From Sphingobacterium thalpophilum (GTDB taxonomy: Bacteria; Bacteroidota; Bacteroidia; Chitinophagales; Chitinophagaceae): 42,079 bases of DNA. Position 1 is the first letter of the stretch. Each line of letters begins with the position of its first letter. The notes under the pieces were generated by a model that saw only the letters and a program-made list of their open reading frames with translations, had not been told where the DNA came from and ran no database searches. The stretch lies in the NCBI GenBank assembly GCA_943325035.2, contig CALPNW020000005.1, positions 1 to 42,079 on the forward strand, written 5' to 3'. Below are positions 1-21,153 of this stretch, one piece after another. The position numbers and the translations under genes were made by a program.

Positions 1-372
1 GGGCTGGCCTGTGATCTGCAGCAAATACAGGAAACAGTTCCGGTAGCAGAGATTAAAAAAATAGTAACCGACTTTCAGGCCGAATTGCATGTACTGACCG
101 TTTTTAAGGAAACAGCGGAGAATTTAGATGCAAACATGATCAGGGAATCCAGGCGGCTGCACGTTCTGCTGAAAGACCTCCTGCCTGTTTATCATTATTC
201 GAGTGCAGAAAATATTGAAAATGAAATAGTTGCTTTTGCAGAAAAAAGCAAATTTGATTTTTTAATGGTGATTCCCAAAAAACACAACCTGATCAGCAAA
301 TTATTTACTAAAAGTCATTCCAGAAATATGTTGCTGCAAACCCATATTCCTATTTTATCAATTCATGATTAG
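1..372 (+). CDS. Universal stress protein (UspA family), C-terminal part, truncated by window start
   Basis: Frame 1 is open from base 1 (GLACDLQQIQETVPVAEIKK...HIPILSIHD*), with a UspA-like C-terminal end (DFLMVIPKKH...LLQTHIPILSIHD). Confidence 0.75.
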   Translation, partial: GLACDLQQIQETVPVAEIKKIVTDFQAELHVLTVFKETAENLDANMIRESRRLHVLLKDLLPVYHYSSAENIENEIVAFAEKSKFDFLMVIPKKHNLISKLFTKSHSRNMLLQTHIPILSIHD

Positions 373-402
373 TTTATTACTGTCTGTTTACAGCGGCTGG
401 CT

Positions 403-1212
403 ATGAAAGAAAAAAAAATCAAAAAAATAATTAAGGAATATTTTGGTAAGCTAAACCTCTATATGGGACTGCTTATTTCGGAATTTAGCATAGAAGAGAT
501 CCACCGTTTCAGGGTTGAATTTAAAAAGACCAGGGCTTTTTTACGAATGGTAGCGGAGAGTTCCGGAGATCAATACAGTATAGGTATTTCAAAAAAAATC
601 AAAAACTATTATCAGATTTGCGGTGATATCCGAAATCTGCAATTACAACGGGAAATGGTGATGGGTGCCGCCGGAAATCATACACCCAAAGCATATCTGT
701 TTGATATTAATAAAAAAATCGTTGAACTGAAAGCCACTCTTTCTTCTCTTTACGATGCTTCTGCTATTGCCGCTCAGGCTAAAAAGACAGACCGTAACAG
801 CCCTGCAAAATTACCAGGTAAAAGTATTCGGGTTTACCTGCACAACAAATGGTCCTTTATCCTGTCTTTGGTTCATTCGGATAAAATTACCGATACAGAT
901 ATTCATTTTGTGCGAAAACAACTAAAAGACCTGGTTTATAATTTAAAATTGTTGGGATATCACACCAGAGATTCCAGGAAAAACAACCTACAGCTTGCCA
1001 GGCTGGAATCCCTGGAACAACTGATGCACCAGCTGGGAGACTACCAGGACCTGACAGTACAAACTGAATTAATGCGTAAAAGTTTGTTGCCCGGTTTACC
1101 CGCATCGGAGCTGAGATTGCTGGAACAAATAAGAACCGACCATAAGCGCCTTAAAAAAGAACAAAAAAAGGCATTATTACAGGAATTACATCATTTCACC
1201 AGACAGGTCTGA
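403..1212 (+). CDS. CHAD domain-containing protein
   Basis: 269 aa; HRFRVEFKKTRAFLRMV and DIHFVRKQLKDLVYNLKLL are CHAD-type His/basic helical repeats. Confidence 0.8.
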   Translation: MKEKKIKKIIKEYFGKLNLYMGLLISEFSIEEIHRFRVEFKKTRAFLRMVAESSGDQYSIGISKKIKNYYQICGDIRNLQLQREMVMGAAGNHTPKAYLFDINKKIVELKATLSSLYDASAIAAQAKKTDRNSPAKLPGKSIRVYLHNKWSFILSLVHSDKITDTDIHFVRKQLKDLVYNLKLLGYHTRDSRKNNLQLARLESLEQLMHQLGDYQDLTVQTELMRKSLLPGLPASELRLLEQIRTDHKRLKKEQKKALLQELHHFTRQV

Positions 1213-1255
1213 TAGATAGCTCAATTGATTAATCAGTTCAACTGACCCTCACTAC

Positions 1256-1320
1256 TGACCAAAATCAGTATAAATATTGACAGCCGTCAGTATTACATAA
1301 AACGGCTATATGTACCTTGC
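1256..1320 (+). promoter_or_regulatory. ytxH-like promoter: tandem CRP/FNR-type boxes plus -7
   Basis: TGACCAAAATCA (1256-1267), TGACAGCCGTCA (1278-1289, centre +22 bp), -7-like TACCTTGC (1313-1320, centre +33 bp). Confidence 0.7.
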
Positions 1321-1341
1321 TCAAGTACCAAACCAGATTTT

Positions 1342-1578
1342 ATGAACAATAGGGCAAAAATATTGGCTGCATTAGCTGCTGGTGCGGCGGTAGGTGTTAT
1401 TCTGGGTATTTTGATTGCGCCTGATGAAGGTGCGCAAACCAGGAAGAAAATTGGTAAAGAAGGCAAAAAGCTGGCGGATGAGTTGAAATACAGAATTCGC
1501 AGAGGCAAAGAACAGTTGGGAGACCTGACTGCCGGTGCAGAAAAGGCCATTCAGGAGAAAATCAGCGAACTGGTATAA
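1342..1578 (+). CDS. YtxH domain-containing protein
   Basis: N-terminal Gly/Ala TM helix (LAALAAGAAVGVILGILIAPDEGAQTRKKI) followed by a charged helix, the YtxH signature. Confidence 0.85.
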   Translation: MNNRAKILAALAAGAAVGVILGILIAPDEGAQTRKKIGKEGKKLADELKYRIRRGKEQLGDLTAGAEKAIQEKISELV

Positions 1579-1719
1579 ATATTTTATCGCAGCATAACTA
1601 TATTTTATTCTGGCATGAACATAATTTAGCTGCATACGGTATTTTAATAAATGCTTTTATTTTCATAAATTCCCTATAGGTAAAGCCAATTATATCTCTG
1701 ATACAGGTATTTCATCTTT

Positions 1720-3384
1720 ATGAATATGACTCCCTCCCTCCTTTACAATTTAGATGAGCAGCATAAACATTGTGCGGTGTTTCATAACCCTTCGTTGGGC
1801 ATTATTCTGTATGACAGCGCTGGAAGTATTGTAACAATGAATCCATTTGCGCTGGCACTTTTCAATTATGCTGAAACAGAAATAATTGGTCATCCGATAG
1901 AAACCCTTATTCCAAGACGTTTGTTGCAGGAAAATTTTACATTTCCTAAAGGGGATCTTTCTCTGGAAACCGGATTAGATTCGGGAATATGGAAAGACCG
2001 GCTAGCGGTAAAAAAAGACGGAACTGAATTGTTTGTAGAAATAAGTCTTAGTTCCTGCAGGGTATCTAATGGAGCGGGTGTGATGGTTCTGCTAAACGAT
2101 ATAACCCTCCGGAAAAGTGCCGAGCAGCAGATTGTTCGGTTAAACAGTGAACTGGAAATTGCCATTCTTCAACGTAACAATACATTGAAGGATACCTTAC
2201 TTAAACTGGAAGTTGCACAAGACAAACTGTTGCAAACCCTCACTTTTCAAAAAGCCATTCTGGATAGTGCAGGTATGATCATAGTTGTTACCGATGAAAA
2301 TGGCATTATCAAACTATATAATCCGGAGGCAGAAAAGAAAACAGGATACACAGAAACAGAAGTGCTCAACAAGCAATTGCTTGATTTATTTATTGATGCT
2401 CCCGGAATTGCAAAAAAAAGACGGCGAATATTTAAAGAGTCCGGAGACTCTGATCTTAACGATTTTGAAGTACTTACTGCAAAAGCAAAAAAGAATACAG
2501 TATGTGAAGAAGAATTTACTGTTGTCACAAAAGAAGGTTTAATGTTTCCTGTTTCAGTAACCATTACCTGTATCAGGGATGCTGCAGGTGTAGTCAGCGG
2601 TTTTATGGGTATTGCTGTTGATATCTCTGTCCGGAAAAATGCGGAAAAAGCCTTGCATGCTGCACTGAAAAAAGAAAAAGAGATCAGCCAGATGAAGTCT
2701 AAGTTTGTTTCCATTGCTTCTCACGAATTCAGAACCCCCTTAAGCACTGTCATTTCTTCTACCTACCTCATTGGCAAATATATAACCACCGAAGACCAGT
2801 CTAAAAGAGAAAGGCATCTCAGCCGCATTGTTTCTTCGGCTAATCTGCTCACTCATACACTGGATGAATTTTTGAGTGCCGGCAGAATTGATGAAGGCTT
2901 CGTACAGGTAAAACCATCCTTATTTAATGTAGTAGGGCTTATCAAGTCGGTAAAGTCCGGGTTGAAAAAAAACATCAAGCAACATATTATTTACCACCAT
3001 TCAGGTACAGAATTGGTTTTTGCCGATGAGTCTATGTTTCAGAATGTGGTTAATAATCTGATGTCTAATTCCGGAAAATTCTCTCCCCCGGAAAGTACGA
3101 TAGAAATAAATACATCCGCTTCGGAAAACGAATTTTTCTTATCTGTGAAGGACGCTGGTATTGGGATTTCAGAGGACGATCAAAAAAATCTGATGGAACG
3201 TTTTTTCAGAGGATCGAATGTTGGAAATATTCCGGGAACCGGTTTGGGATTGCATATTGTATCTAAATATGCAGAACTTATGAACGCACAAATAGCCTGT
3301 AAAAGCAAATTGAATATTGGCACAGAGTTTACATTCCAGTTTAAAAACAAACTTATTGAAAATGAAAAAGATCCTGTTAATTGA
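1720..3384 (+). CDS. PAS-PAS sensor histidine kinase
   Basis: Two PAS domains, HisKA (SHEFRTPLSTVIS), HATPase (DAGIGISEDDQ, GTGLGLHIV). Confidence 0.93.
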   Translation: MNMTPSLLYNLDEQHKHCAVFHNPSLGIILYDSAGSIVTMNPFALALFNYAETEIIGHPIETLIPRRLLQENFTFPKGDLSLETGLDSGIWKDRLAVKKDGTELFVEISLSSCRVSNGAGVMVLLNDITLRKSAEQQIVRLNSELEIAILQRNNTLKDTLLKLEVAQDKLLQTLTFQKAILDSAGMIIVVTDENGIIKLYNPEAEKKTGYTETEVLNKQLLDLFIDAPGIAKKRRRIFKESGDSDLNDFEVLTAKAKKNTVCEEEFTVVTKEGLMFPVSVTITCIRDAAGVVSGFMGIAVDISVRKNAEKALHAALKKEKEISQMKSKFVSIASHEFRTPLSTVISSTYLIGKYITTEDQSKRERHLSRIVSSANLLTHTLDEFLSAGRIDEGFVQVKPSLFNVVGLIKSVKSGLKKNIKQHIIYHHSGTELVFADESMFQNVVNNLMSNSGKFSPPESTIEINTSASENEFFLSVKDAGIGISEDDQKNLMERFFRGSNVGNIPGTGLGLHIVSKYAELMNAQIACKSKLNIGTEFTFQFKNKLIENEKDPVN

Positions 3385-4420
3385 AGACAATAAAGATATC
3401 CGGGATAATACGTCTGAAATACTCGAATTATCCAGTTACAAAGTTATTATTGCGGAAGACGGTAAAAACGGAGTAGAGAAGGCGATTAAATACGCGCCGG
3501 ACCTGATCATTTGTGATATAATGCTGCCTATGCTGGATGGTTACGGGGTGATCCATGCAATTCAAAGAAATGATGCCATTAAAAATATACCCTTTATTTT
3601 TCTGACGGCTAAAACAGAACGGGAAGATTTCCGAAAGGGCATGGACCTTGGCGCAGACGACTATATTACCAAGCCATTTGAAGCAACGGAGTTGTTAAGG
3701 GCGGTAGACAGCCGGCTTAAAAAGATCCAGCTGCTAAAGGCAGAACTAACGCCTGGTATTGATGGGCTGAAGGAGCTGATGCAGATCTCCTCAGAAAAAA
3801 ACGTCTTACAAACCTTCACTTCCGGAAGAAACACCAATAATTATAACAGAAAACAAAAAATATACAAGGAATCGAATCACCCGGACAGTTTATTTTACGT
3901 AGTTAAAGGGAAAGTAAAAACTTATAAAATAAATGGCGATGGCAAAGAGCTTGTTACCAATCTTTATACGCAGGGAGATTTTCTGGGGTATATTTCCTTA
4001 CTGGAAGGAGGAACTTATAAGGATAATGCAGAAGCCATGGAGGAAACAGTATTGGCGGTAATACCTAAAAGAGAATTTACAGAACTTTTGGATAACAATA
4101 AAGAAATCACTCTAAAGTTTATTAAGTTACTGGCAAAAAATGTTATAGCCAAAGAAGAACATCTGTTAGGTCTGGCTTATAATTCGCTCCGGAAAAAAGT
4201 GGCAGAAGCTTTGATTCTGCTGCATAAAAAATACAGTTATTCTAAAGATGAAATCTTTGTGCTGGACATCACCAGAGAGTCTCTGGCAACTATTGCAGGA
4301 ACTGCTACCGAATCGCTGATCAGAACACTGGGAGATTTTAAGAATGAAAAACTGATAGAAATGAATGAGGGGAAAATTACAGTAGTAGACCAGACAAAAC
4401 TGGAAAGGCTGGCTAATTAG
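3362..4420 (+). CDS. Response regulator: receiver domain fused to cyclic-nucleotide-binding-like domain and Crp-type HTH
   Basis: Start chosen at ATG 3362 (MKKILLIEDNKDIRD); REC with LIICDIMLPMLDG and TKPF; cNMP-like fold (YVVKGKVKTYKINGDGKE...QGDFLGYISLLEGG); HTH (RESLATIAGTATESLIRTLGDFKNEKLI). Confidence 0.92.
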   Translation: MKKILLIEDNKDIRDNTSEILELSSYKVIIAEDGKNGVEKAIKYAPDLIICDIMLPMLDGYGVIHAIQRNDAIKNIPFIFLTAKTEREDFRKGMDLGADDYITKPFEATELLRAVDSRLKKIQLLKAELTPGIDGLKELMQISSEKNVLQTFTSGRNTNNYNRKQKIYKESNHPDSLFYVVKGKVKTYKINGDGKELVTNLYTQGDFLGYISLLEGGTYKDNAEAMEETVLAVIPKREFTELLDNNKEITLKFIKLLAKNVIAKEEHLLGLAYNSLRKKVAEALILLHKKYSYSKDEIFVLDITRESLATIAGTATESLIRTLGDFKNEKLIEMNEGKITVVDQTKLERLAN

Positions 4421-4439
4421 CAGAAATAACAATAAAAAA

Positions 4440-4463
4440 CCCGCCAGCCATATAGCTGACGGG
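4440..4463 (-). terminator. Rho-independent terminator downstream of hsp20
   Basis: Stem CCCGcCAGC / GCTGaCGGG; on the minus strand followed by GTTTTTTATTG. Confidence 0.7.
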
Positions 4464-4488
4464 GTAACCCAACTCCAACTGCTGCTGG

Positions 4489-4935
4489 TTATTTTACTGC
4501 AATCTTTGTTGCAGAATTATTTTTCATTACTTCTGTACTGGGCAGGGTGATTTTTAAAACACCATCTTCATATTTGGCTTCAATCTGCTCTTTTTTTATA
4601 TTATCAGGCAAAGTGAAGCTTCTGCTGAATGAAGAGTAACTGTATTCTTTTCTTGTGAACTTTTCTTCTTTTTCTTCTTTACTTTCTTCATTTTCGCAAC
4701 TGATGGTTAACATGTTTCCCTCCATGTCAATTTTAAAATCCTCTTTTTTTAAACCGGGTGCGGCTAAAGAAACCAGGTAAGCGTCTTTCTGTTCAGTGAT
4801 ATTTACCGAGGGCACGCTGGCTATCCGGTCTAAAAAATTGGTGCCATTATTAAACCACTCATTCCATGGTTTAAAAAAATTGTCGAACAAATGCGGGGCT
4901 CTTTCTGTGAGTTTAGATAATTCGCGGGTAGACAT
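4489..4935 (-). CDS. Hsp20/alpha-crystallin family small heat-shock protein (1)
   Basis: Start chosen at MSTRELSK; VNITEQKDAYLVSLAAPGLKKEDFKIDMEGNMLTIS...YEDGVLKITLP is an alpha-crystallin domain. Confidence 0.93.
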   Translation of the reverse strand: MSTRELSKLTERAPHLFDNFFKPWNEWFNNGTNFLDRIASVPSVNITEQKDAYLVSLAAPGLKKEDFKIDMEGNMLTISCENEESKEEKEEKFTRKEYSYSSFSRSFTLPDNIKKEQIEAKYEDGVLKITLPSTEVMKNNSATKIAVK

Positions 4936-4973
4936 GATTGCTCTGTTTAATTGTTTATAAATCAATTGAAGCA

Positions 4974-5038
4974 TAAAAGTAGAATCCAAAAAAAAATGAA
5001 TCAAGGATTACAGTCAGGTCCTTCGATGATTCTGGTCA
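4974..5038 (-). promoter_or_regulatory. hsp20-1 promoter: tandem CRP/FNR-type boxes plus -7
   Basis: Plus-strand coordinates: distal TGATTCTGGTCA (5027-5038), proximal GGATTACAGTCA (5005-5016, one mismatch), -7 TACTTTTA (revcomp of 4974-4981). Spacings 22 and 33 bp. Confidence 0.65.
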
Positions 5039-6270
5039 GCAGGGCTGTTCTTTGGCCGGTCGATCCGTTTAAAATAAAAAGTAGCCAGATGAAATATCAG
5101 CCGGATGGATTGATAGCTGCACCACCGGATAAACTGTATGAATATATTTTTCTTGCTTAAATGAAGCTCTCTGGTAATTGGAATGCAATCTTCCTGAATG
5201 ATCTTCTCCAGTTCTTTTTCTATTGCTGTTGCGAACGGTCTGTTTCTTACATCCAGATTAAGTTCGATACTGGCATATGCACTGATATCATTTACATTAT
5301 AGGATCCGACTGTAAGCCATTCATTGTCACAGGCTGCGACTTTTGCGTGTAATACGGCAGGCTGGTATTCGAGTATTTTAATATTGTTTCTTAAAAGCAG
5401 ATCGTAAAGCCATCTCTCTGCATGTTTGGCCATTATGATATCGGATTTTCCTGCAGTAATCACCCGGATCTCCACACCTCTGGCTGCCGCATTTTTCAGC
5501 AATCTGGATATCACTCTGCCAGGGAGGAAATAACTGCATAAAATGGTTACATGCGATTTCGCATGTAACAGCATTTCAATATAAGTGGCGGAAATTTCAT
5601 TTTTTCTTTTTACCCAGTCATTTCTTCTGATCCTGACCTCACAGGCATCTTCTCCGGATAACTGGAAAGCCACAGGATTATTTTCACAGGTGAGTAATTT
5701 GGTTCTTGCCGGAAATCCATTCCAGGTTTGACTGCATAATATGCAAAGGCCCCGTGCAGTTTCTCCTTCCACAAATAAAGTTAAATCGAACCAGGCAGGT
5801 TCCTCAGGCATATCATTGTATCTGTCGGCAATATTGGATCCGCCTGTTAATGCAAACCATGAATCGGTAACCAGCACTTTGTGGTGCATTCTTCTGCCGA
5901 AATAAAAGTTTTTGCTTTTAAAAAGAGGTTCAAAAAAACGAAAATGAACTCCTGCGGCTTTTAGTTCATCAATAAAATGGGTTGAAATACTTTGAGAGGC
6001 ATAGCCATCTAGCATCAGGAATACTTCTACTTTTCTTTTTGCGGCCTGCTTTAATGCCTCCCCGATCATTCGGCCGGTTTCATCGTCGGAGTAGATATAG
6101 GTCTGCAGGTGGATGGTTTTACAGGCGCTGTGAATCAACTTTAAAGCCAGGTCAAAATATTCCCTGCCTCCACGAATTAGTTTTACCTTATTATTTGTTG
6201 TGTAACCTGTGTAAATATTTCCTGTTTGGTGGGTGCCCTTGTGCGAAAGCTGATTTACCTGATTTTTCAT
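5014..6270 (-). CDS. Phospholipase D / cardiolipin synthase family protein
   Basis: Two HKD motifs (MHHKVLVTDSWFALTGGSNIADRY; LHAKVAACDNEWLTVGSYNVND). Confidence 0.9.
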   Translation of the reverse strand: MKNQVNQLSHKGTHQTGNIYTGYTTNNKVKLIRGGREYFDLALKLIHSACKTIHLQTYIYSDDETGRMIGEALKQAAKRKVEVFLMLDGYASQSISTHFIDELKAAGVHFRFFEPLFKSKNFYFGRRMHHKVLVTDSWFALTGGSNIADRYNDMPEEPAWFDLTLFVEGETARGLCILCSQTWNGFPARTKLLTCENNPVAFQLSGEDACEVRIRRNDWVKRKNEISATYIEMLLHAKSHVTILCSYFLPGRVISRLLKNAAARGVEIRVITAGKSDIIMAKHAERWLYDLLLRNNIKILEYQPAVLHAKVAACDNEWLTVGSYNVNDISAYASIELNLDVRNRPFATAIEKELEKIIQEDCIPITRELHLSKKNIFIQFIRWCSYQSIRLIFHLATFYFKRIDRPKNSPADQNHRRT

Positions 6271-6300: not shown

Positions 6301-7947
6301 CTAAATATACAATTTTTCATAATATTCTTTAGCCATACGGTTACTTTCGAACCGGGGGATGATGTCGCTCAATCCGTTTTTCAGGATGGTTGTCCACTGA
6401 TCGGGATGATCGTAATAAACAGGCAAAACTATATTTTCGAGTGTTTGAAAAAGGTTATTGGCATCAATACGGTCCTGTTCATGCTCAGGTAGATTTTTAT
6501 CGGCAGGTGGTATGATAAATGAGTTGACATTGTCTTTTGCAAATTCAGGGAACCAGCCGTCTGGCAGTGCTACATTAATAGCCCCGTTCATTGCTGCAGA
6601 CATGCCGCTTGTTCCGCATGCCTCATGGGTTAGCCGGGGAACATTTAACCAGACATCTGCACCTGATTTCAATATTTTAGTGAGCCGGAGTTCATAGCCG
6701 GAAAGGATAGAACAGTTTGCATAATTCTTACACAGGTCAGCAATTTTATCATAGATGCTGATGGCTGCATAATCCACCGGATAGGGTTTGCCTGCCCAGA
6801 TAATCTGTACAGGCCGGTCTTTATTGGTAACCAGCCGGTGAAATTTGTCCATATCATTCAACAGCAGATCGGCTCTTTTATATCCGGCAAAACGCTTTGC
6901 AAAAACAATAGTACAAACAGTGCTGTCATAAATTTCCCCGCACTGATCTGCTACCACATCAAATAGCGCCTGCTTTCCCTTTTTTTTTCTTTCTGTTATT
7001 TTTTTGTCATTATCCACATGCAGCGCTTCGTACATTTCTTCATCATGCCAATAGCTGTAATTTTGCGCATTGGTAATAGCAATGATATCGCAAATGTCAT
7101 TTTCCCTGTTCCAGATTTCCCTTAGCGTTTGTTGATGAAGTTTGGAAACTGCATTGGCTCTCTTTGCAAAACGAAGTGCCGTTAATGTATGATCAAGTAC
7201 ATCACCTTCTGTGCCGGTAATTGCCCTGATTTCACCGATAGGTATGGAACAAAAAAAGCCCATTTTTTCTAACAGGCTCAAACTGCTTTGCTGGTTTCCC
7301 GCTTTTTCGGGAGTATGGTTGGTGAAAACCAGCCTTTCTTTTACCCATTCCCTGCTGTTGTATTTTTTGTATAAAGAAAACAGGAGTGGCAGCGCATGCG
7401 ACTCGTTTAAATGATAAATGTCTGGTTGCCAGTTAATAGCTTCCATTAATTTGACTGTTCCGGTTCCCAGTAAAATAGCTGCGGCAATCTGTGTTTCCGG
7501 ATTGGAATCGTATAATTTGAAAGAGATGGTTTTTGCGAGGTAATCATTCTCCGGAAGATCTGTTGAAAGAAAAAAAATGGGTGCGGTATTAAAAACAGTG
7601 GGGGGTAAATAATAGGCGGTTACCCAAACCGGTTGCCCGGAAACTATGATGCTGAAACGGATTCCTGTCTCCTGTAAAAAACCATACCTTTTTTCCTGAA
7701 ATAATACATCCATTCTCTGGTCTTCTTTACGGATCTGATCGTAGTAACCATATTTCCATAATATACCAAAACCTATCATGGGCTGCTTTAGCTCATAAGC
7801 ACTTCTCATATGCGATCCTGCTAAAATGCCCAATCCGCCCGCATAGGTTTTAAGTGGCTGGTGAATGCCGTATTCCATGCAGCAATAAGCCACTTTAACT
7901 TTAAATTCCGGATTAATATCGTATGGAAATTTAAAGGAAAATGGCAT
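6301..7947 (-). CDS. Alpha-glucan phosphorylase family protein (GT35-like, short form)
   Basis: Motifs VAYCCMEYGIHQPLKTYAGGLGILAGSHMRSA, FAKRFAGYKRADLLL, HEACGTSGMSAAMNGAINVALPDGWFPEF. Confidence 0.85.
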   Translation of the reverse strand: MPFSFKFPYDINPEFKVKVAYCCMEYGIHQPLKTYAGGLGILAGSHMRSAYELKQPMIGFGILWKYGYYDQIRKEDQRMDVLFQEKRYGFLQETGIRFSIIVSGQPVWVTAYYLPPTVFNTAPIFFLSTDLPENDYLAKTISFKLYDSNPETQIAAAILLGTGTVKLMEAINWQPDIYHLNESHALPLLFSLYKKYNSREWVKERLVFTNHTPEKAGNQQSSLSLLEKMGFFCSIPIGEIRAITGTEGDVLDHTLTALRFAKRANAVSKLHQQTLREIWNRENDICDIIAITNAQNYSYWHDEEMYEALHVDNDKKITERKKKGKQALFDVVADQCGEIYDSTVCTIVFAKRFAGYKRADLLLNDMDKFHRLVTNKDRPVQIIWAGKPYPVDYAAISIYDKIADLCKNYANCSILSGYELRLTKILKSGADVWLNVPRLTHEACGTSGMSAAMNGAINVALPDGWFPEFAKDNVNSFIIPPADKNLPEHEQDRIDANNLFQTLENIVLPVYYDHPDQWTTILKNGLSDIIPRFESNRMAKEYYEKLYI

Positions 7948-7957
7948 GCGTAATTGT

Positions 7958-8404
7958 TTAATAAACGATGACTTCTTTACTGTTGTTCCTCACAGGTTCG
8001 CCATTTTTTGGAATACAAAGCGTTAGCACTCCCTCGTTGAATTCGGCACTCATGAATTCTGTATCTGCATGTAGGGGTAACAGGATATAATTGGTTTCTA
8101 CGGGTAAGCCCATTCCGTTGCGAGATTGTATATACTCCTCAGGATCTCTGTTTTTGTGATGCAGCACAGATACAAACAGTACCGTATCATCTACATTGAT
8201 GGAAATGTCTTCCCTGTTGGCAGCATCAATTTCAATAATGATTTTATACATATTCTGCAGTTCATGAACCGAAGGTTCTGCCAGGATAAATGAACTGTTG
8301 GAGGGTATTATGCTGTTTTCCGTTAAATGCACTCTTTCCGGGGTAGCGGTATAAATTCCCGGATAAATGGTGCACTCTTTAGTGGTATTAAAATGGGTAA
8401 ACAT
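7958..8404 (-). CDS. Hsp20/alpha-crystallin family protein (2, divergent)
   Basis: YKIIIEIDAANREDISINVDDTVLFVSVL...FNEGVLTLCIPKNGE is a weak alpha-crystallin domain pattern. Confidence 0.75.
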   Translation of the reverse strand: MFTHFNTTKECTIYPGIYTATPERVHLTENSIIPSNSSFILAEPSVHELQNMYKIIIEIDAANREDISINVDDTVLFVSVLHHKNRDPEEYIQSRNGMGLPVETNYILLPLHADTEFMSAEFNEGVLTLCIPKNGEPVRNNSKEVIVY

Positions 8405-8421: not shown

Positions 8422-8487
8422 TAAAGTTATTGGTGCAACGATGCCGGAAATTATGATTGAGGTCAATACAAGTAATGATTGATGTCA
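8422..8487 (-). promoter_or_regulatory. hsp20-2/glucan phosphorylase/PLD promoter: tandem CRP/FNR-type boxes plus -7
   Basis: TGATTGATGTCA (8476-8487), TGATTGAGGTCA (8454-8465, centre 22 bp closer to gene), -7 TAACTTTA (revcomp of 8422-8429, centre 34 bp away). Confidence 0.7.
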
Positions 8488-8509: not shown

Positions 8510-10420
8510 CTACATCAAAATTGTTGTCTGATTCCGTTTACCCAGTATTTTTTCAAGATCTTCCTTATAAATGGTTTCTTTTTCTAATAATAACGCTGCT
8601 GTTTGGTTGAGGGCCTCTTTGTTTTGCATTAATAGATCCTTGCTTTTCAGGTAAGCACTTTCTACCAGCTTTCTGACTTCCACATCTATTAAACTGGCAG
8701 TAGCTTCACTGTATGGTTTATGGAAAGAGTGGTCCTGGTGTCCGGAAGAATCATAAAAACTGATATTGCCGATCTTTTCATTAAACCCATAATAGACCAC
8801 CATTGTATAAGCCTGTTTGGTTAGTTTTTCCAGATCATCCAATGCGCCGGTAGAAACTTCGCCAAAAATGATTTCTTCGGCTGCCCGCCCGGCCAAAGTG
8901 GCCGAAAGTAGTTCAGTAAAAGCAGATTTACTTTTCAACTGTTTTTCCTCGGGTAAGTACCAGGCAGAACCGAGTGCTTTGCCCCGGGGTATGATGGATA
9001 CTTTTGCAATTGGATCTACCTGTTGCAACATCCAGCTTACCACCGCATGTCCTGCTTCGTGATAGGCTATTTTCTTTTTTTCATCCGGAAGTATGATCTT
9101 GCTTTTCTTTTCTATACCGGCAATGATTCGGTCTATAGCAGCTACAAAATCTGAGCGGTCTATCTTATTCTTTTTTTTACGTGCCGCAATCAAAGCAGAT
9201 TCATTACAGATATTGGCGATATCCGCCCCTGAAAAGCCGGGAGTCTGTGCCGATAATAAGTGGGGGTCTATTGAATTGTCGAGTACCAGGGGCTTGAGAT
9301 GTACTTTAAAAATCTCCTCTCTTTCTTTCAGATTAGGTAGCTCCAGATAGATATGCCTGTCGAATCTTCCGGGGCGCAGCAGGGCAGGATCTAATATGTC
9401 GGCCCGGTTAGTTGCTGCAAGCACGATCACTCCGCTATTGGTGCCAAAACCATCCATCTCTGTCAACAACTGGTTCAGCGTACTTTCTCTCTCATCGTTT
9501 GCCCCACCTAAAAATGCACCCTTGCCTCTGGACCTTCCGATTGCATCTATCTCATCAATAAAAATAATACAGGGCGCTTTTTCTTTTGCTTTAATAAAAA
9601 GATCCCTTACCCTGGATGCACCTACGCCAACAAACATCTCTACAAACTCGGATCCGGAAATGGAGAAAAATGGCACTTTTGCCTCGCCTGCTACAGCTTT
9701 GGCCAATAAGGTTTTACCCGTACCTGGAGGGCCTACCAGTATCACTCCCTTTGGAATTTTTGCCCCCAGCTTGGTGAATTCATTGGGGCTTTTTAAAAAG
9801 TCGATTATTTCTTTTACTTCTGTTTCTGCTTCTTCCAGACCTGCAACATCCGCAAAACTGATATTGCTTTTTTCTTTCTCTACCAGTGTTGCAGTGGATT
9901 TTCCAAAGTTAAAGACAGATCCGCTGCCTGTGCCCAGCACCGAATTTTTTTTAAAGAAATATCCCCATACTCCCATCAGTAAAACAAACGGAAGTACCCA
10001 TCCCAGTATGTTCCAGAACCAGTTGGTGCTTTTAATATAACTAACCGGAATTTTATCAGTAAGAGGAACATTTTTTTGTACCTCATCCAGTTTTTTTTCG
10101 AGCATTTCTGCCGAACTGATCGTAAAGGTATAGTGTGGTCCCGGAGCCGTTCCCTTGCCAAATAATGGTTTTAAAACCTGCTTGAACTGCGGATCATTGG
10201 CCAGCTCTTTTTTTAGGTATACCGTTGCTTTTTCATTGTTGATCACTTCTATTTTTTCTACTGCATTTTTGCCCAAAAGGTTTTTTTCAAACTGCTGCCA
10301 GGTAATTAACTGGCTTTCATTATAAAAGTTGGCAATAGAGGGGGAGAGTATTATCAGCAGTAATACTAAATAGATCCATATTCGGTAATCTCTTTTTTTT
10401 CCGGGGGTATTCATTTGCAT
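8510..10420 (-). CDS. ftsH: ATP-dependent zinc metalloprotease FtsH
   Basis: Two N-terminal TM segments, Walker [37 protein letters not shown] zinc motif. Confidence 0.97.
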
Positions 10421-10424
10421 CCGG

Positions 10425-10467
10425 TAAAGGTGAAAAGTATTTACGACTCAACGAATGACTATGATCA
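10425..10467 (-). promoter_or_regulatory. ftsH promoter: CRP/FNR-type box plus -7
   Basis: TGACTATGATCA (10456-10467) and -7-like CACCTTTA (revcomp of 10425-10432), spacing 33 bp. A distal 22-bp-phased copy is only weak (TGCGAATGGTTA, 10478-10489). Confidence 0.55.
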
Positions 10468-10598: not shown

Positions 10599-11279
10599 CT
10601 ATACTTCGTAAGCATATTCCGGCAATTGTATTTCCAGGCGGCTTTCTACGCTGCTCACTCCCGGAGCCGCCCATGCCACTCTTTCTGCCTCTTCTTTTTC
10701 TGCAAAAGAACTAACTTTTCCTCTCAGGATCACTTTGTTTCCTGAAAGGCTAACAGTAATGCGACCAGCGTCTACAGTAGCACTTCTGTGAAATGCCCTG
10801 CCGATTTTCTTTTCGATATCGGCAGCAGAAATTTTTGGGGTGACCCGGATCAGATTAATAACCGATACTACTCCTGTAAGATTTTCTATAGCACGGGTTG
10901 CATTATTCCGCTGGTATTCCCATTCAACCTCGCCTTCCAGTTTTACAATACCGTCCTCTACCTTTATCTTGATCTTTTCTTCCTGTACTGCAGTATGCCA
11001 TTTTAGCGCACTTACAACTGCTTCTGCAATTTCAGTATCTGTTTTTTTGAAGTGAGCGGAAATACCCACCAGAATATCCACGGCCACCACTTTTACGCCA
11101 ACTACCCTTTTTGCAGCTTTTTCTGCTGCCAATTTTTTGGTATAGGTATCAACATGACCGGAAAGAGTTACAATTCCTTCCTTAACGGCAACGCCTATTT
11201 CCGCAGCAGACAGAAACGGGTCCCATTTAATTTCATCGAGTACATCTTTTTGGATTTGCACATCAGTTTTCATAGACAT
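10599..11279 (-). CDS. BON domain-containing protein (three BON domains)
   Basis: Three repeats: VKEGIVTLSGHVDTYTKKLAAEKAAKRV; VEDGIVKLEGEVEWEYQRNNATRAI; LSGNKVILRGKVSSFAEKEEAERVAW. Confidence 0.92.
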   Translation of the reverse strand: MSMKTDVQIQKDVLDEIKWDPFLSAAEIGVAVKEGIVTLSGHVDTYTKKLAAEKAAKRVVGVKVVAVDILVGISAHFKKTDTEIAEAVVSALKWHTAVQEEKIKIKVEDGIVKLEGEVEWEYQRNNATRAIENLTGVVSVINLIRVTPKISAADIEKKIGRAFHRSATVDAGRITVSLSGNKVILRGKVSSFAEKEEAERVAWAAPGVSSVESRLEIQLPEYAYEV

Positions 11280-11323: not shown

Positions 11324-11388
11324 CAAAATAAAAGCAGCGTCTTATGCTTTCCAATGAGTAAGATCATTTCCTGTATTGACTCTTGTCA
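11324..11388 (-). promoter_or_regulatory. BON gene promoter: tandem CRP/FNR-type boxes plus -7
   Basis: TGACTCTTGTCA (11377-11388), TGAGTAAGATCA (11355-11366), -7-like TTATTTTG (revcomp of 11324-11331). Spacings 22 and 33 bp. Confidence 0.7.
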
Positions 11389-12036
11389 TTATATGGCATT
11401 TAATGATGATTTCTCCTGTTTGTTTTTTAACTGATAGAGATAGCTCAGTACTTCCTGGTCTGAAACCTGGGTAAAGTCTTCATAAAATACACCTACCGAC
11501 CCGAATTCTTCGGGGATCAGCACTGCAACAAGGCCATCGGCTTCTGTTGATAATTTCCGGAATGCTTTCCCGGAAATCACAGGAACCCCTATGATAATAT
11601 TCAGTGGTTTTCGTTTCCTGATCAGTTGTATGGTAGCGGTCATGGTGCTTCCGGTGGCAATTCCATCGTCAATAATGATGGCTGTTTTGCCGGCCAGATC
11701 AATTGGTAATGCATTCCCCACAAATTTTTGATGCATTGCTTTTATATTCTCACGGATATTTTCTAATGTTTGGGTCAGGTATGCTTCATTTACCGGTATA
11801 CCCGGATTGATAAAATGCTCCGAAAGACTGGCAGCTCCTATTGCATATTCCTTATTGTCCGGATGTCCGATTTTTTTGGTAATTACCACTTCCACCGGAA
11901 AGTTCAATTGGTTGGCAACAGCATACGCCACGGGTACTCCTCCGCGCGGAATTGCCAGTATAATGCAATCCCTGTTTCTATATGCTTCCAGCTTTTTTGC
12001 CAGTTGAATACCTGCATCGGTTCTGTTTTTAAACAT
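11389..12036 (-). CDS. Phosphoribosyltransferase family protein
   Basis: PRPP motif TAIIIDDGIATGSTMTA; IILAIPRGGVPVAYAVANQL. Confidence 0.92.
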   Translation of the reverse strand: MFKNRTDAGIQLAKKLEAYRNRDCIILAIPRGGVPVAYAVANQLNFPVEVVITKKIGHPDNKEYAIGAASLSEHFINPGIPVNEAYLTQTLENIRENIKAMHQKFVGNALPIDLAGKTAIIIDDGIATGSTMTATIQLIRKRKPLNIIIGVPVISGKAFRKLSTEADGLVAVLIPEEFGSVGVFYEDFTQVSDQEVLSYLYQLKNKQEKSSLNAI

Positions 12037-12044
12037 ATTGGCAA

Positions 12045-12494
12045 TTATTGTTTTTCAAATCTTCCGGTAATTTTCTTTATACGAATCCGATATAGAATAT
12101 ATTTTACCCTGTTGCTGTCATCAACAATACCCGTAGTTTCATGCTCGTGATGGTGTATGGTACTGCTTGTTAGCAGCGGATATACTCTTGAAAAAAGAAT
12201 ATCTCTTGCTTTTATTTCATCCCCGCCTTTGAGTTCTTCAAATTTTCCGAAAACCAGCACACTTTGCCAGTTTCTCATGTCTGTTATAATATCAGTTTCC
12301 AGACAAACCTCAGGATTCATTCTGAGTATTCTCAGCTTTTCGCCTACATTGGTTTGGCCGTAAATAAATTCTCCGTCATATGTAAATGTAGTTGGTACGA
12401 TATACGGTTTCTTCCCGTCTGTGCATGCCAGTCTTCCTACTACCTGACTCGTAAGAATATTTTTAATTTGGATGTCATTGAGTTCTCCGAGCAT
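12045..12494 (-). CDS. Pyridoxamine 5'-phosphate oxidase family (flavin-binding split-barrel) protein
   Basis: VVGRLACTDGKKPYIVPTTFTYDGEFIYGQTNVGEKLRILRMNPEVCLETD. Confidence 0.85.
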   Translation of the reverse strand: MLGELNDIQIKNILTSQVVGRLACTDGKKPYIVPTTFTYDGEFIYGQTNVGEKLRILRMNPEVCLETDIITDMRNWQSVLVFGKFEELKGGDEIKARDILFSRVYPLLTSSTIHHHEHETTGIVDDSNRVKYILYRIRIKKITGRFEKQ

Positions 12495-12514: not shown

Positions 12515-13039
12515 TTATTCGGGCAATACAATGGGGGTTCTTGCCCTCTGGTTGATTTCATACGCTGCAAGCTGTGTTAACCGGTCGTCTATCTGTATCT
12601 CACTGACAGAGGCTTCGTGAAATGCCAGTGAGTATTTTTCTTTGCCAACAGAATTGGCAAATGCGGCGGCAGTTCCGTAAACACTTATTTTATAATGATT
12701 GATTGCCTGTAAATTGGCCAGCAGGCAAGCATCCTTCACTTCGGCGTCCCGGCAAATGTTCAGCCGCTCTTCTGTATCATCTATAAAGGCGGCCATGATC
12801 TGGTCTGTAAAGCCTGCTGCGGAAATATTTTCTTCCTGCAAATATTCTTCCATCTTTTGTTTGTGTACAATTATCTTTTCCCGGTATCGCTGAATGACTG
12901 TTTTCAGTTTAAGGGAACTGGCAACCACTACCCATTTTTCGAGCCTGTTTTCCAGTTGTAACTCGGCCGAATGGAATTTTCTGATATCATATTCCAGCAG
13001 ATCTCCGAGGGTGGTGATGGTTTGATAATTGTCTGACAT
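12515..13039 (-). CDS. Ferritin-like DUF892 (YciE/YciF-type) family protein
   Basis: TLGDLLEYDIRKFHSAELQLENRLEKW, a helical ferritin-like pattern with Glu/His positions. Confidence 0.75.
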   Translation of the reverse strand: MSDNYQTITTLGDLLEYDIRKFHSAELQLENRLEKWVVVASSLKLKTVIQRYREKIIVHKQKMEEYLQEENISAAGFTDQIMAAFIDDTEERLNICRDAEVKDACLLANLQAINHYKISVYGTAAAFANSVGKEKYSLAFHEASVSEIQIDDRLTQLAAYEINQRARTPIVLPE

Positions 13040-13058: not shown

Positions 13059-13123
13059 TAAAATTAGCAGAACACCAACGCAGGATTAATGCTTACAGTC
13101 AGTTCAGGTATTGATAGTTGTCA
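13059..13123 (-). promoter_or_regulatory. DUF892-PNPOx-PRTase operon promoter: tandem CRP/FNR-type boxes plus -7
   Basis: TGATAGTTGTCA (13112-13123), TGCTTACAGTCA (13090-13101, one mismatch), -7 TAATTTTA (revcomp of 13059-13066). Spacings 22 and 33 bp. Confidence 0.7.
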
Positions 13124-13158: not shown

Positions 13159-13223
13159 TGACTAGAATCATCGGAAAGACTGACGTGCAGCATTGCAAAT
13201 TGGCCTTAAATGAAGTTCTTTTG
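13159..13223 (+). promoter_or_regulatory. Erythromycin-esterase-like gene promoter: tandem CRP/FNR-type boxes plus -7
   Basis: TGACTAGAATCA (13159-13170), TGACGTGCAGCA (13181-13192, one mismatch), -7-like TTCTTTTG (13216-13223). Spacings 22 and 33 bp. Confidence 0.65.
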
Positions 13224-13275: not shown

Positions 13276-14613
13276 ATGCAACATTATTTTACCAAAGCAC
13301 CAATGTTCTCAGAAGCGGAGGTGATCAGCTCAATAAAGCAATGGGCCATACCACTGCAATCCAAAAATGACCTGACTCCCCTGTATGATAAAATTGGTGA
13401 CGCAAGAGTGGTTATGCTGGGAGAAGCAAGCCATGGCACCCATGAATTTTATTCCTGGAGAGCTCATATTACGCGCTACCTGATAGAAGAGAAAGGGTTT
13501 AATTTTATTGCTGTTGAGGGAGACTGGCCCGATTGTTACCGGGTAAACCGTTTTGTAAAAGGATATGCGAATTCCGGTGCAACAATTTTTGAAGTATTAA
13601 AGTCTTTCAACAGATGGCCAACCTGGATGTGGGCCAACTGGGAAATAACTGCTATGGGTAATTGGCTCTACAGCCACAATAAGGACCTTGCGCCAGAGAA
13701 GAAGGCCGGGTTCTATGGTTTGGATGTTTACAGTTTATGGGAGAGTATGAACTCTATTATGGATTATCTCCAGAAAACGGATATGGCAGCGTATGAAATT
13801 GCAGAAAAAGCGTACGAATGTTTTGAGCCTTACCGAAAAGAAGAAGGGCGGTCTTATGCTACTGCAACCCGTTTGGTTCCTGCATCCTGTGAAACTGCGG
13901 TACTTCAGCTGCTTGCTGAAATACAGCGAAAAACACCTAGTTACAATTCAGACCATGAAAATGTATTTAATACCAGACAAAATGCCTTTGTAGCGGTAAA
14001 TGCAGAAAAGTATTATCGCAGTATGTTTCTTGGCGGACCGCACAGCTGGAATATCAGGGATCGTCATATGTACGATACGCTAGACAGATTACTTGAATTT
14101 CATGGAAAAAATTCAAAAGTTATTGTATGGGAACACAATACCCATATAGGAGACGCCAGAGCTACCGATATGGTAGATGAGGGCATGTTTAACATAGGAG
14201 AACTGGCAAGAACCAGGCATGCAGACAGGGGGGTAGTGCTTGTAGGATTTGGGTCTTATTCCGGTTCGGTTATTGCCGGAAAAAAATGGGGTGCTGAAAT
14301 GGAGGCCATGCAAATGGCGGAGGCAAGAAAAGGCAGCTGGGAATATTTTTTACATAGGGCAGGAGAAGACGATAAATTATTGTTGATGAATGATTTTTTG
14401 GAAAATGACATGCTCATGGAAAACCATATTCCGCACCGGGCTATTGGGGTGGTCTATAATCCGGAGCTGGAGAAGTACGGAAATTATGTTCCTTCTATCC
14501 TGCCATTGCGTTACGACGCCTTCATTTACCTGGATCATACAAGGGCTTTATTTCCGTTGCACATACCTGCCGATAAAATGCAGATTCCGGAAACATATCC
14601 ATTCGGGCTATAA
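13276..14613 (+). CDS. Erythromycin esterase family protein (EreA/ChaN-like hydrolase)
   Basis: VVMLGEASHGTHEFYSWRAHITRYLIEEKGFNFIAVEGDWPD; VIVWEHNTHIGDARATDM. Confidence 0.93.
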   Translation: MQHYFTKAPMFSEAEVISSIKQWAIPLQSKNDLTPLYDKIGDARVVMLGEASHGTHEFYSWRAHITRYLIEEKGFNFIAVEGDWPDCYRVNRFVKGYANSGATIFEVLKSFNRWPTWMWANWEITAMGNWLYSHNKDLAPEKKAGFYGLDVYSLWESMNSIMDYLQKTDMAAYEIAEKAYECFEPYRKEEGRSYATATRLVPASCETAVLQLLAEIQRKTPSYNSDHENVFNTRQNAFVAVNAEKYYRSMFLGGPHSWNIRDRHMYDTLDRLLEFHGKNSKVIVWEHNTHIGDARATDMVDEGMFNIGELARTRHADRGVVLVGFGSYSGSVIAGKKWGAEMEAMQMAEARKGSWEYFLHRAGEDDKLLLMNDFLENDMLMENHIPHRAIGVVYNPELEKYGNYVPSILPLRYDAFIYLDHTRALFPLHIPADKMQIPETYPFGL

Positions 14614-15059: not shown

Positions 15060-18041
15060 GTGTTTCCGGCAAGCAAACCGGAATCCAGTAACAAAAGACA
15101 ACCAATGCCCGACTATTCCGGTTCAAAACCAGAAAAAAAGAGTAAATCTGTAAAAATTAAAAGTACAGAATTGCAAAGCAGGAAAAAATTCCCTGTGGTG
15201 GGTATCGGGGCATCTGCGGGCGGCTTAGAGGCGCTTACTATTTTATTTGATCATCTGCCTTCTGATACGGGAATGGCATTTGTTATTGTTCAGCATACCG
15301 ACCCTACCTACAAGAGTCTGTTGTCCGAACTGATTGGCCGGCATACAAAAATGCCCGTAGCTGAAATTACCAATGCTTCCACCATTCAACCCAATTCTGT
15401 TTACATTATTCCTTCTAATAAAGATGTACGACTACACAATAGTATTTTCAGATTAACCACTCCAAAGCTTGCAAGGGCTAAAAGAAGGCCGGTTGATATT
15501 TTCTTTCATTCTCTGGCCGAAGACCAGCAGGAGTTTGCGATAGGGATTGTTCTTTCCGGTAATGGAACCGAAGGAACGCTGGGCCTGATAGAAATTAAAG
15601 CTGCAGGCGGAATGGCCATTGTTCAGGATCCTGCAACCGCACAATTTGGTGGAATGCCGGAAAACGCCATACTGAGCGGGTCGCCGGATTATATCCTGGC
15701 TCCGGATAAAATACCTTCCAAACTAAATAATTATAATAAAAAAAGAATAAAACCGGCAACCCTTAAAAAGGAAATGTTGGGACCGTCGGAACGGCAGCTG
15801 GATAAAATATTAGCGGTAATCAAATCGAGAACAGGCCATGATTTTACAGAATATAAGCCCAATACGATTATCCGGAGAATTATTAAAAGAATTGCGCTGC
15901 ATAAAACGGGATCAGTAGAAGCCTATATTGGTGTAATGGAAAAGAAACCGGAAGAAGCGATTGAATTATACAATGATTTTTTAATTGGGGTGACTTCTTT
16001 TTTCAGGGATAAGGACGTATTTAATTATCTGGAAAAAAAAGTATTACCTGGTTTATTGGAAAGTGCTGAAGAAAAAAAGGAAATCCGGGTATGGGTTTGC
16101 GGATGTTCAACGGGGGAGGAAGCTTATTCCTTTGCCATGCTTTTCCGGGAAATGCTCCTGAAACTAAAGCTGGATACTAAAGTCACCATTTTTGCTTCTG
16201 ATCTGGATAAAGAGGCAATTGTATTTGCCCGGAAAGCAGTATATCCTGCCACCATCGCTAATGCCGTTTCCGCAGAAAGAATAAATAAATTTTTTAATAA
16301 AAAGGATTCAGCATACCATTTGTGTAAGGAAGTAAGGGACATGGTGGTATTTGCTCATCATAATGTAATTAATGATCCGCCATTCTCTAAAATGGATTTG
16401 ATCAGTTGTAGAAATTTACTGATCTATATTAACAGTGATTTACAAAAGAAAATCATACAGCATTTTTATTACAGCCTGAACGATTCCGGACTTCTTGTAC
16501 TGGGGTTATCCGAAAATATTGCTAATCCGGCCGGGTTGTTTTTAACAGTCGACGAAAAATTACGGATCTTCAAAAAGAAAGCCGGATTCTCCAGAAAAAT
16601 AAATCCTGTATACGATCTTTCATTTGTAAAACAAGCGAAAGATACTACCCATAAAGCACCCATCGAATTGAGTATGAAAAAATTGAATATTTCAGGTATA
16701 ACAGAAAAGATCCTGTTAGACCAGTATGCCCCCCCCTCTGTAATTATTGATAAGTACAATGAGGCTATCTATTTTTCTGGTAATACCGGCATTTACCTGG
16801 AACCTCCTCCCGGAATTGCAAGATTTGATATTCTGGAAATGGCGCGGAACGGGCTCAAGCATAGTTTGGAAGAAGCCATTAAAAAAGCAAGAAAAACCAA
16901 CTCAGAGGTAGAAACAAAAAACATTGAAGTGTTGCTCGAAGACCAGTACAGAATAACGCGGTTAAAAGTGAAGCCGCTGCTGTCTAAGGAATATGAACCG
17001 GGTACATTAATGATCATTTTTGAACCGGTCAATAAGCCCGGCAAGCCCAATAAGGAAAATAAAAATAGTGTTGAAAAGGAGAAGTTAAAGCTCAGTTTAC
17101 TCGAAAAGGAACTGAAAATGACCAGGCAGCATCTTCAGATTGCTATCAATGAACTGGAAACTTCTCTTGACGATTTTAAATGTTCCAATGAAGAGTTACA
17201 GAGCTCCAATGAGGAGCTGGAAACATCCCGGGAAGAACTTCAGGCGGTGAACGAGGAGCTGGTTACCGTTAATGCTGAACTCAACGGAAAACTGGATGAA
17301 TTGTCTGAGTCCAATAATGACCTTACGAACTTATTGCGTTGTATTGAAGTGGCAACACTTTATCTGACCAAGGATCTCCTGATCAAAAGATTTACACCGG
17401 CAGCTACTAAAATATTTAATCTGATTTCTACTGATATAGACCGGCCTGTAACCCAGCTCTCTGCTAATCTTGAATACAACAGCCTTGTAACAGATGTTAA
17501 GCAGGTGCTTAAAACACTACAGGTTAAATCTATTCAGGTGAAAGACCTGAATGGTCTATGGTATTACATGCGGATCATTCCTTACCGGACATCCGAAAAT
17601 ATTATTGAGGGCGTACTTGTAACGCTGGTAGAGATTACCAGTCAGAAAACGGTAGAACTGGAGTTGAAAAAATCCAATGAATACCTGAATCTGATCATGG
17701 AGAATTTGCCGGTGATCCCGTATACGGCATTATTGAAACCAAAGCTTAAAATGGATTTTATTGGAAAAACTGTTGAAAGGGTAACTGGGTTTTTACCGGA
17801 AAAGTTTAGCGGTTCTATCAGTTTCTGGTCTGGCAGAATACACCCCGACGACAAAAAAAGTACATTGGCCTCTTTGGAGGATCATTCTAAGAAAGGCAGC
17901 AGGAATCAGCCTTTCAGGTGGAAGTGTGCAGATGGAAAATATAAAAGTTTTATTATCAGCAAACAGTTTATTCCAGAGGCAGAAGGCCGATCTGCTTATC
18001 TGGTTGGTGTTTGGCAGGAAACCCCTAAAATCATTGATTAA
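15060..18041 (+). CDS. CheB-CheR fusion with C-terminal coiled coil and PAS domains
   Basis: CheB methylesterase (VVGIGASAGGLEAL, VLSGNGTEGTLGL), CheR methyltransferase (VWVCGCSTGEEAYSFAM), SNEELQSSNEELETSREELQAVNEEL coiled coil, PAS. Start may be GTG 15060 or ATG 15105. Confidence 0.93.
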   Translation: MFPASKPESSNKRQPMPDYSGSKPEKKSKSVKIKSTELQSRKKFPVVGIGASAGGLEALTILFDHLPSDTGMAFVIVQHTDPTYKSLLSELIGRHTKMPVAEITNASTIQPNSVYIIPSNKDVRLHNSIFRLTTPKLARAKRRPVDIFFHSLAEDQQEFAIGIVLSGNGTEGTLGLIEIKAAGGMAIVQDPATAQFGGMPENAILSGSPDYILAPDKIPSKLNNYNKKRIKPATLKKEMLGPSERQLDKILAVIKSRTGHDFTEYKPNTIIRRIIKRIALHKTGSVEAYIGVMEKKPEEAIELYNDFLIGVTSFFRDKDVFNYLEKKVLPGLLESAEEKKEIRVWVCGCSTGEEAYSFAMLFREMLLKLKLDTKVTIFASDLDKEAIVFARKAVYPATIANAVSAERINKFFNKKDSAYHLCKEVRDMVVFAHHNVINDPPFSKMDLISCRNLLIYINSDLQKKIIQHFYYSLNDSGLLVLGLSENIANPAGLFLTVDEKLRIFKKKAGFSRKINPVYDLSFVKQAKDTTHKAPIELSMKKLNISGITEKILLDQYAPPSVIIDKYNEAIYFSGNTGIYLEPPPGIARFDILEMARNGLKHSLEEAIKKARKTNSEVETKNIEVLLEDQYRITRLKVKPLLSKEYEPGTLMIIFEPVNKPGKPNKENKNSVEKEKLKLSLLEKELKMTRQHLQIAINELETSLDDFKCSNEELQSSNEELETSREELQAVNEELVTVNAELNGKLDELSESNNDLTNLLRCIEVATLYLTKDLLIKRFTPAATKIFNLISTDIDRPVTQLSANLEYNSLVTDVKQVLKTLQVKSIQVKDLNGLWYYMRIIPYRTSENIIEGVLVTLVEITSQKTVELELKKSNEYLNLIMENLPVIPYTALLKPKLKMDFIGKTVERVTGFLPEKFSGSISFWSGRIHPDDKKSTLASLEDHSKKGSRNQPFRWKCADGKYKSFIISKQFIPEAEGRSAYLVGVWQETPKIID

Positions 18042-18113
18042 CCCATTTCCCTCAGTTAACTAACACATTCCCCCTCATCATTCAATTCTGTAGCATTTTA
18101 AAAGTAGTAATGT

Positions 18114-19385: not shown

Positions 19386-19386
19386 C

Positions 19387-19420
19387 AAAAAAAGAGAATC
19401 TGTTCAGATCCTCTTTTTTT
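19387..19420. terminator. Bidirectional Rho-independent terminator
   Basis: AAAAAAAGAGaATCTG-TT-CAGATcCTCTTTTTTT between a plus-strand kinase gene and a minus-strand tRNA. Confidence 0.8.
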
Positions 19421-19428
19421 AAAAATTG

Positions 19429-19510
19429 TGCGGATGGAGGGGGTCGAACCCACACGCCTCGCGGCGCTAGATCCTAAGTCTAGTGCGTCTGCCAATTTCG
19501 CCACATCCGC
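19429..19510 (-). tRNA. tRNA-Leu (anticodon UAG)
   Basis: Revcomp GCGGATGTGGCGAAATTGGCAGACGCACTAGACTTAGGATCTAGCGCCGCGAGGCGTGTGGGTTCGACCCCCTCCATCCGCA: 7-bp acceptor, long variable arm, loop CTTAGGA, TTCGA T-loop; CCA not encoded. Confidence 0.95.
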
Positions 19511-19541
19511 GCACTCAAGGCCGCAAAAATAGGGGTTTTTG

Positions 19542-21071: not shown

Positions 21072-21153
21072 GAAAAGCAAAGTTTTTCGGTAAGTGTTTC
21101 GGGGGGCAACAATTAAAAATAAGTATTTTTAACTAAAGCGGAACAGACCATAA

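Follow-up and report, generated by a model that had tools for sequence, protein, structure and literature searches.

The 42,079-nucleotide stretch of DNA analysed here (the window) encodes a response regulator in which a receiver is fused to a CRP/FNR-type protein (REC-CRP). We propose, with a probability of about 0.75 for the scheme as a whole, that REC-CRP is a two-component activator that would unite FixJ and FixK in one protein and would govern a low-oxygen-type regulon through paired TGA-N6-TCA boxes. If true, this scheme predicts a low-oxygen two-component regulon with exact promoter rules for an abundant and poorly understood bacterial group, and the prediction is directly testable in cultured relatives; the tandem sites are present in 132 of 199 genomes. 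It would also provide a CRP/FNR protein that phosphorylation triggers and whose operator is conserved, and would present gene fusion as a way to shorten a sensor-relay-activator cascade. A literature search, with the standard surveys of response-regulator output domains outside its scope, returned no paper on the REC-CRP fusion and its sites; the domain order may already be on record.

Domain structure of REC-CRP and its kinase

The sequence-only reading had described the product of the regulator gene as a receiver with a phospho-Asp, a CRP beta-roll and a Crp HTH, and this description was confirmed: all three domains (PF00027 and PF13545 among them) scored above the Pfam cut-offs, and the phospho-Asp is D52 in LIICDIMLPMLDG (Table 1). 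Across 33 aligned fusions, E8, D9, D52, K104, E317 and R321 are invariant and position 82 is Thr in 30 and Ser in 3; the receiver active site (acidic pair, phospho-Asp, Thr/Ser, Lys) is complete in 33 of 33. The CRP half, whose closest solved structure is 2gau, aligns with CRP across 195 residues, and in this alignment the cAMP ligands of CRP (E72, R82, S83) are replaced by Y210, D221 and N222, with position 221 being Asp or Glu in 30 of the 33 fusions. The FNR-type cysteine cluster (N-terminal plus internal) is absent from REC-CRP, whose only cysteine, C51, lies in the receiver beside the phospho-Asp. A complete receiver, replaced cAMP ligands and this sole cysteine make phosphorylation the likely trigger, to judge from the anatomy of the protein.

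The Glu-x3-Arg spacing reported earlier for the recognition helix was also found (E317 and R321 in ATESLIRTLGDFK). The further claim, that the match between helix and motif forms a specific link between this protein and the boxes, did not survive. Glu-x3-Arg is common to the FNR-like solo paralogue described below and to several Crp-family proteins of a close relative (G160), which makes the helix argument weak and non-specific as proof; as the contact residues are the same in REC-CRP and the paralogue, the argument fits either protein as reader.

A PAS-PAS-HisKA-HATPase sensor kinase is encoded upstream (Table 1), and a kinase gene lies directly upstream of the fusion, often overlapping it, in 23 of 33 fetched genes, the window included. 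Among solved structures, the PAS of a relative's kinase (G172) matched the FixL haem PAS (E 4e-15) and DosP best, and the haem His aligned in these matches. This haem-type His is kept in 21 of 23 kinases of the family, which by itself is no proof of haem binding. The window kinase has N72 where its relatives, FixL and DosP have the haem His, and its PAS matched the DosP PAS weakly (E 3e-6). Oxygen sensing by the window kinase is doubtful because Asn replaces the haem-type His. Going by the predicted targets, the signal in this organism would be low oxygen or energy shortage.

Tandem boxes and promoter architecture

The motif first proposed, TGAC-N5-TCA, was counted 15 times in the window, where 4.5 ± 2.3 were expected and 0 of 100 shuffles came as high; boxes of this type are thus real here. 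As a definition of the motif it was replaced, the conserved unit being TGA-N6-TCA twice, 22 bp apart, with C, T or G at position 4. TGAC-N5-TCA-N10-TGA-N6-TCA is present at 5 places in the whole genome and the reversed pattern at 0. Over the order's 199 genomes, the tandem box gave 517 oriented hits in 132 genomes compared to 10 hits for the reversed pattern.

A TAnnTTTG-like element was found exactly 23 bp past the second box at 40 of 92 oriented sites in fetched loci from fusion genomes, a group that includes a few genomes also having the solo protein (e.g. G178, G198, G089). The same offset was seen at 9 of 30 sites in genomes with the solo paralogue only and at 2 of 4 in one genome with both; at any other offset the element was found at 4 sites at most. 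A Flavobacterium transcription-start study places TAnnTTTG at –12 to –5 (PMC9723704), and this register centres the second box at –41.5, the place of a class II activator, and the first at –63.5. The box pair reads as two FNR-type sites on the same face of the DNA, 22 bp apart. A sigma-70 promoter scan of window positions 1200-5100 gave nothing clearly above chance.

A position matrix (PWM) was trained on 51 promoters, all from other genomes. Its top six sites in the window were the six island promoters (28.3-32.9), each facing a gene, whereas the random maximum was 22.7 in 420 kb. The promoter of the YtxH gene probably drives the kinase and REC-CRP as well, which would amount to autoregulation. 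FtsH is a doubtful target, the matrix score of its box lying inside the random range.

Table 1. Features of the REC-CRP island and matrix-scored sites elsewhere in the genome. Positions are those of the window unless a contig is named; contigs carry the authors' numbers.
Feature	Position	Strand	Details
CHAD-domain protein	403..1212	+	left part of island, together with USP on C171
Promoter of YtxH, probably also kinase and REC-CRP	1256..1320	+	boxes 1256-1267, 1278-1289; –7 TACCTTGC 1313-1320; PWM 32.0; R1 E 1.5e-4
YtxH-like protein	1342..1578	+	first gene after promoter 1256-1320
PAS-PAS-HisKA-HATPase sensor kinase	1720..3384	+	3' end overlaps regulator gene start by 23 bp
REC-CRP fusion response regulator	3362..4420	+	352 aa; ORF and Pfam
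REC-CRP, receiver	residues 4-115		D52; Response_reg, E 1.5e-27
REC-CRP, beta-roll	residues 160-246		cNMP_binding, E 3e-20
REC-CRP, Crp HTH	residues 279-350		HTH_Crp_2, E 3e-13; recognition helix ~315-327
Promoter of Hsp20 (gene 4489-4935)	4974..5038	-	boxes 5038-5027, 5016-5005 (TGACTGTAATCC); –7 TACTTTTA; PWM 32.9, window best
Promoter of Hsp20-like gene 7958-8404	8422..8487	-	boxes 8487-8476, 8465-8454; –7 TAACTTTA after 24 bp; PWM 30.4; gene followed by GlgP-like 6301-7947, then PLD 5014-6270
Single box before FtsH (8510-10420, -)	10456..10467		partner box and –7 element degenerate
Promoter of BON-domain protein 10599-11279	11324..11388	-	boxes 11388-11377, 11366-11355; –7 11331-11324; PWM 30.3
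Promoter of DUF892 gene 12515-13039	13059..13123	-	boxes 13123-13112, 13101-13090; –7 TAATTTTA; PWM 30.8; gene followed by pyridoxamine-oxidase-like 12045-12494, then phosphoribosyltransferase 11389-12036
Promoter of erythromycin-esterase-family gene 13276-14613 (Pfam)	13159..13223	+	boxes 13159-13170, 13181-13192; –7 TTCTTTTG; PWM 28.3
Promoter of baeRF-USP	C171:2282	-	score 35.5
Promoter before secreted protein	C72:738	+	score 34.9
[NiFe] hydrogenase structural genes one way, hypA/hypB-like other way	C7:25703 / C7:25736	+ / -	scores 32.8 / 28.8
USP	C32:4114	+	score 27.8
Degenerate tandem site before fixI-fixNO (cbb3)	C33:6329	+	score 24.2, weaker

Extent of the island and sites elsewhere in the genome

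The window is the whole of one contig (C5) of a 2.86-Mb draft genome in 254 contigs that is ~90% complete. The genes around REC-CRP encode YtxH, two Hsp20 proteins, PLD, a glucan-phosphorylase-like protein, FtsH, BON, a phosphoribosyltransferase, a pyridoxamine-oxidase-like protein, DUF892 and erythromycin esterase. Window positions 1-627 match the end of contig C171 with 93.6% DNA identity, and the island therefore continues leftward on that contig, which adds a USP, a baeRF and a DNA-polymerase-beta-like gene; strain variants probably caused the assembly to break between the two. Most strict tandem boxes in this genome are inside the island, and none stands beside the solo gene of C33. The hydrogenase site (C7:25703-25767) is a bidirectional tandem-box promoter. 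Two sites on C140 (L173:1874-1937), scoring 32.3 and 30.4, make up a strong tandem promoter facing both ways; the genes on either side encode proteins of a secreted or surface type, without any evident tie to respiration.

Distribution of the fusion and the boxes

Three-domain fusions (~34-63% identity) were found in 126 of the order's 199 genomes. In wider samples, 44 of 74 genomes of the class had one and 223 genomes from the remaining classes of the phylum had none; a single-protein scan of genome contigs returned only three full-length relatives. In a midpoint-rooted tree, all fusions formed one clade (99/100), and the solo groups were nearest among the sampled proteins.

The sequence-only reading had named co-occurrence of REC-CRP orthologues with the motif across genomes as a check, and the two do co-occur. 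Where no FNR-like paralogue was present, tandem boxes were found in 89 of 105 genomes with the fusion compared to 8 of 39 without it (p 9e-13; as cells hold related genomes, several of them incomplete, and presence was called by E-value cut-offs, p-values here are guides only and permutation within families is the better measure). With the fusion label permuted within families, 0 of 20,000 permutations were as high as observed. For the other orders of the class, counting by hand gave boxes in 13 of 31 genomes with the fusion and in 2 of 27 without. Not every fusion genome has boxes: 22 of the 126 were without a strict tandem box, as were most fusion genomes of one large family of the same class (f25). 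Twenty fusion loci were newly fetched, four of them from genomes without a strict tandem hit; in 12 loci a promoter with a score of 24 or more lay within ~10 kb and 8 were without one, while 20 control stretches, taken from contigs of ten of these loci's genomes, held 0 promoters at that score.

The motif was also found without the fusion, an outcome that the earlier reading had named as counting against it. Tandem boxes occur in 28 of 73 fusion-less genomes, 20 of which have the paralogue, and this rules out that boxes require the fusion; the fusion is therefore not demonstrably their only reader. Among fusion-less genomes, boxes were present in 20 of 34 with the solo protein versus 8 of 39 without, a difference not upheld within families (p 0.14). 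The proposal that the fusion reads the boxes thus keeps the support of co-occurrence and co-location independent of the paralogue and of the class II position, and loses the status of sole reader. We conclude that REC-CRP very probably reads the boxes, its binding being predicted from the genomes.

Two incomplete genomes (G173 and G176, 73% and 87% complete) gave 7 and 4 tandem hits, but no gene for either regulator; such genes may lie in the parts that are missing. One record titled Williamsia, an actinobacterium (JADCRZ010000033.1), carries a 61% identical REC-CRP, the kinase and tandem-box promoters, and its title is probably wrong.

cbb3 loci of relatives and the solo paralogue

REC-CRP and the kinase adjoin a cbb3 cluster (FixNO, FixP, FixG, FixH, FixI, DsbD_2) in more than 12 genomes. 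In these loci fixI or fixNO is preceded by tandem promoters, and so, often, is REC-CRP itself; REC-CRP and its kinase probably control the cbb3 oxidase in these relatives. In three genomes without the fusion (G126, G096, G145), the solo protein occupies the cbb3-side place with promoters of the same kind. The present genome has an FNR-like solo CRP on contig C33, next to the cbb3 operon, with N-terminal cysteines and the same TE-S-x-IR helix as the fusion. Its closest solo relatives (67 and 65% identical) come from two genomes with no tandem box (G008 and G041). The solo protein was found in 21 of 126 fusion genomes compared to 34 of 73 fusion-less ones (odds ratio 0.23, p 1e-5), i.e. the two labels avoid each other.

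Proposed mechanism and alternatives

In the proposed scheme, the upstream PAS kinase would phosphorylate D52, and this phosphorylation, in place of cAMP or an Fe-S cluster, would put the CRP half into its DNA-binding form. Dimers would then bind the two FNR/FixK-like TGA-N6-TCA sites 22 bp apart, an architecture that is itself observed, and bound REC-CRP would activate sigma-A promoters with the TAnnTTTG –7 element. The predicted targets in the island are the YtxH-kinase-REC-CRP genes, the two Hsp20 genes, BON, the DUF892 operon, erythromycin esterase and USP/baeRF; those off the island would be the [NiFe] hydrogenase and a further USP, together with the cbb3-oxidase operon as a weak candidate. 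Such a set suggests a low-oxygen or energy-limitation programme. It is possible, and we offer it tentatively, that much of the class swapped a Cys-bearing FNR or a FixL-FixJ-FixK relay for this two-step relay, and that in the lineage of the window the kinase lost the haem-type His while the system turned from respiration to DosR-like stress or dormancy functions plus hydrogenase.

One competitor for the boxes is the solo CRP of C33, which might be their main reader, with REC-CRP a neighbour that has another target. Its TE-S-x-IR helix is that of the fusion, its N-terminal cysteines and the ability of its gene to adjoin boxes and cbb3 fit such a role, and 20 of 34 solo-only genomes have boxes, which show the same 23-bp architecture. 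However, 89 of the 105 genomes that have the fusion and no solo orthologue carry boxes, within families the boxes do not follow the solo label, the genomes of the closest solo relatives of C33 are without them, and most strict boxes of this genome are in the REC-CRP island with only a degenerate one beside C33; we consider this reading quite unlikely. To a version in which both proteins read the same sites, REC-CRP bringing in the kinase signal and the solo FNR a direct oxygen or redox signal, we would give close to an even chance, and it is compatible with REC-CRP as a two-component activator and refines it. The contact residues are identical, across the order as a whole each label is associated with boxes, both proteins are present in this genome, and there is precedent in the anaeroboxes shared by FixK and FnrN in Rhizobium (PMC7888657). 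Yet only 21 of 199 genomes have both, and the mutual avoidance of the labels fits replacement better than general partnership.

Other alternatives concern the trigger and the nature of the repeats. A ligand in the beta-roll could be the trigger, with REC-CRP not phospho-activated and the receiver only modulating; the beta-roll is well conserved, with G194, G205, F207 and G209 invariant among the fusions and Y210 mostly kept. Against this reading, which seems to us unlikely, stand the loss of the cAMP ligands, the receiver site complete in all 33 fusions and the kinase gene directly upstream, often overlapping, in 23 of 33. That the repeats are a local feature of the island, for example one spread with a mobile island, instead of regulator sites, would suit the concentration of this genome's strict tandem boxes in one island, but is contradicted by their fixed 23-bp phase to the –7 element, their orientation to genes, their presence upstream of hydrogenase, USP and cbb3 genes that are distant from the island, and their occurrence in 132 of 199 genomes, and we regard it as highly improbable.

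Comparison with known systems

The REC-CRP system resembles the rhizobial FixL-FixJ-FixK(-FnrN) cascade with its anaerobox TTGAT-N4-ATCAA (PMC7888657) in combining a PAS kinase, a receiver and a CRP/FNR-family activator without oxygen-sensing cysteines, and in having, as seen in relatives, a palindromic site of FNR type ahead of the cbb3 oxidase genes (fixNOQP/fixGHIS); the FixL haem PAS is also the nearest PDB match for the PAS of the relative's kinase. It differs in that a single polypeptide holds both the receiver and the CRP half, so that the FixJ-to-fixK transcription step is missing, in its tandem TGA-N6-TCA sites at the predicted –41.5/–63.5 positions, and in the window kinase, which is without the haem-type His. 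FixJ itself has an output domain of another type (LuxR/NarL) than that of REC-CRP.

The DosS/DosR (DevR) dormancy regulon of Mycobacterium tuberculosis has a similar gene kit under one low-oxygen two-component system, an analogy of gene content only with no homology of the regulator. DosR is of the NarL/LuxR type. In M. tuberculosis, Rv2028c-Rv2031c encode a USP, an alpha-crystallin-type Hsp20 and a phosphoribosyltransferase/erythromycin-esterase protein under DosS/DosR (PMC4410610). With E. coli CRP and FNR, REC-CRP shares the CRP fold, the Glu-x3-Arg recognition helix, the TGA-N6-TCA core and the predicted class II position, and it differs from them in its N-terminal receiver, replaced cAMP ligands and lack of Fe-S cysteines. 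The structure closest to its CRP half, 2gau, is that of a Crp/Fnr-family protein from Porphyromonas gingivalis. CrpPg of that species is of the CRP type and independent of cAMP (PMC12040651); unlike REC-CRP, these P. gingivalis proteins have no receiver domain.

Other features of the window

Genes for a CheB-CheR-PAS protein and two further PAS histidine kinases follow one another at window positions 15060-21080, with no response regulator to partner them. A tRNA-Leu gene at 19428-19510 (minus strand) underlies the spurious ORF 19262-19582.
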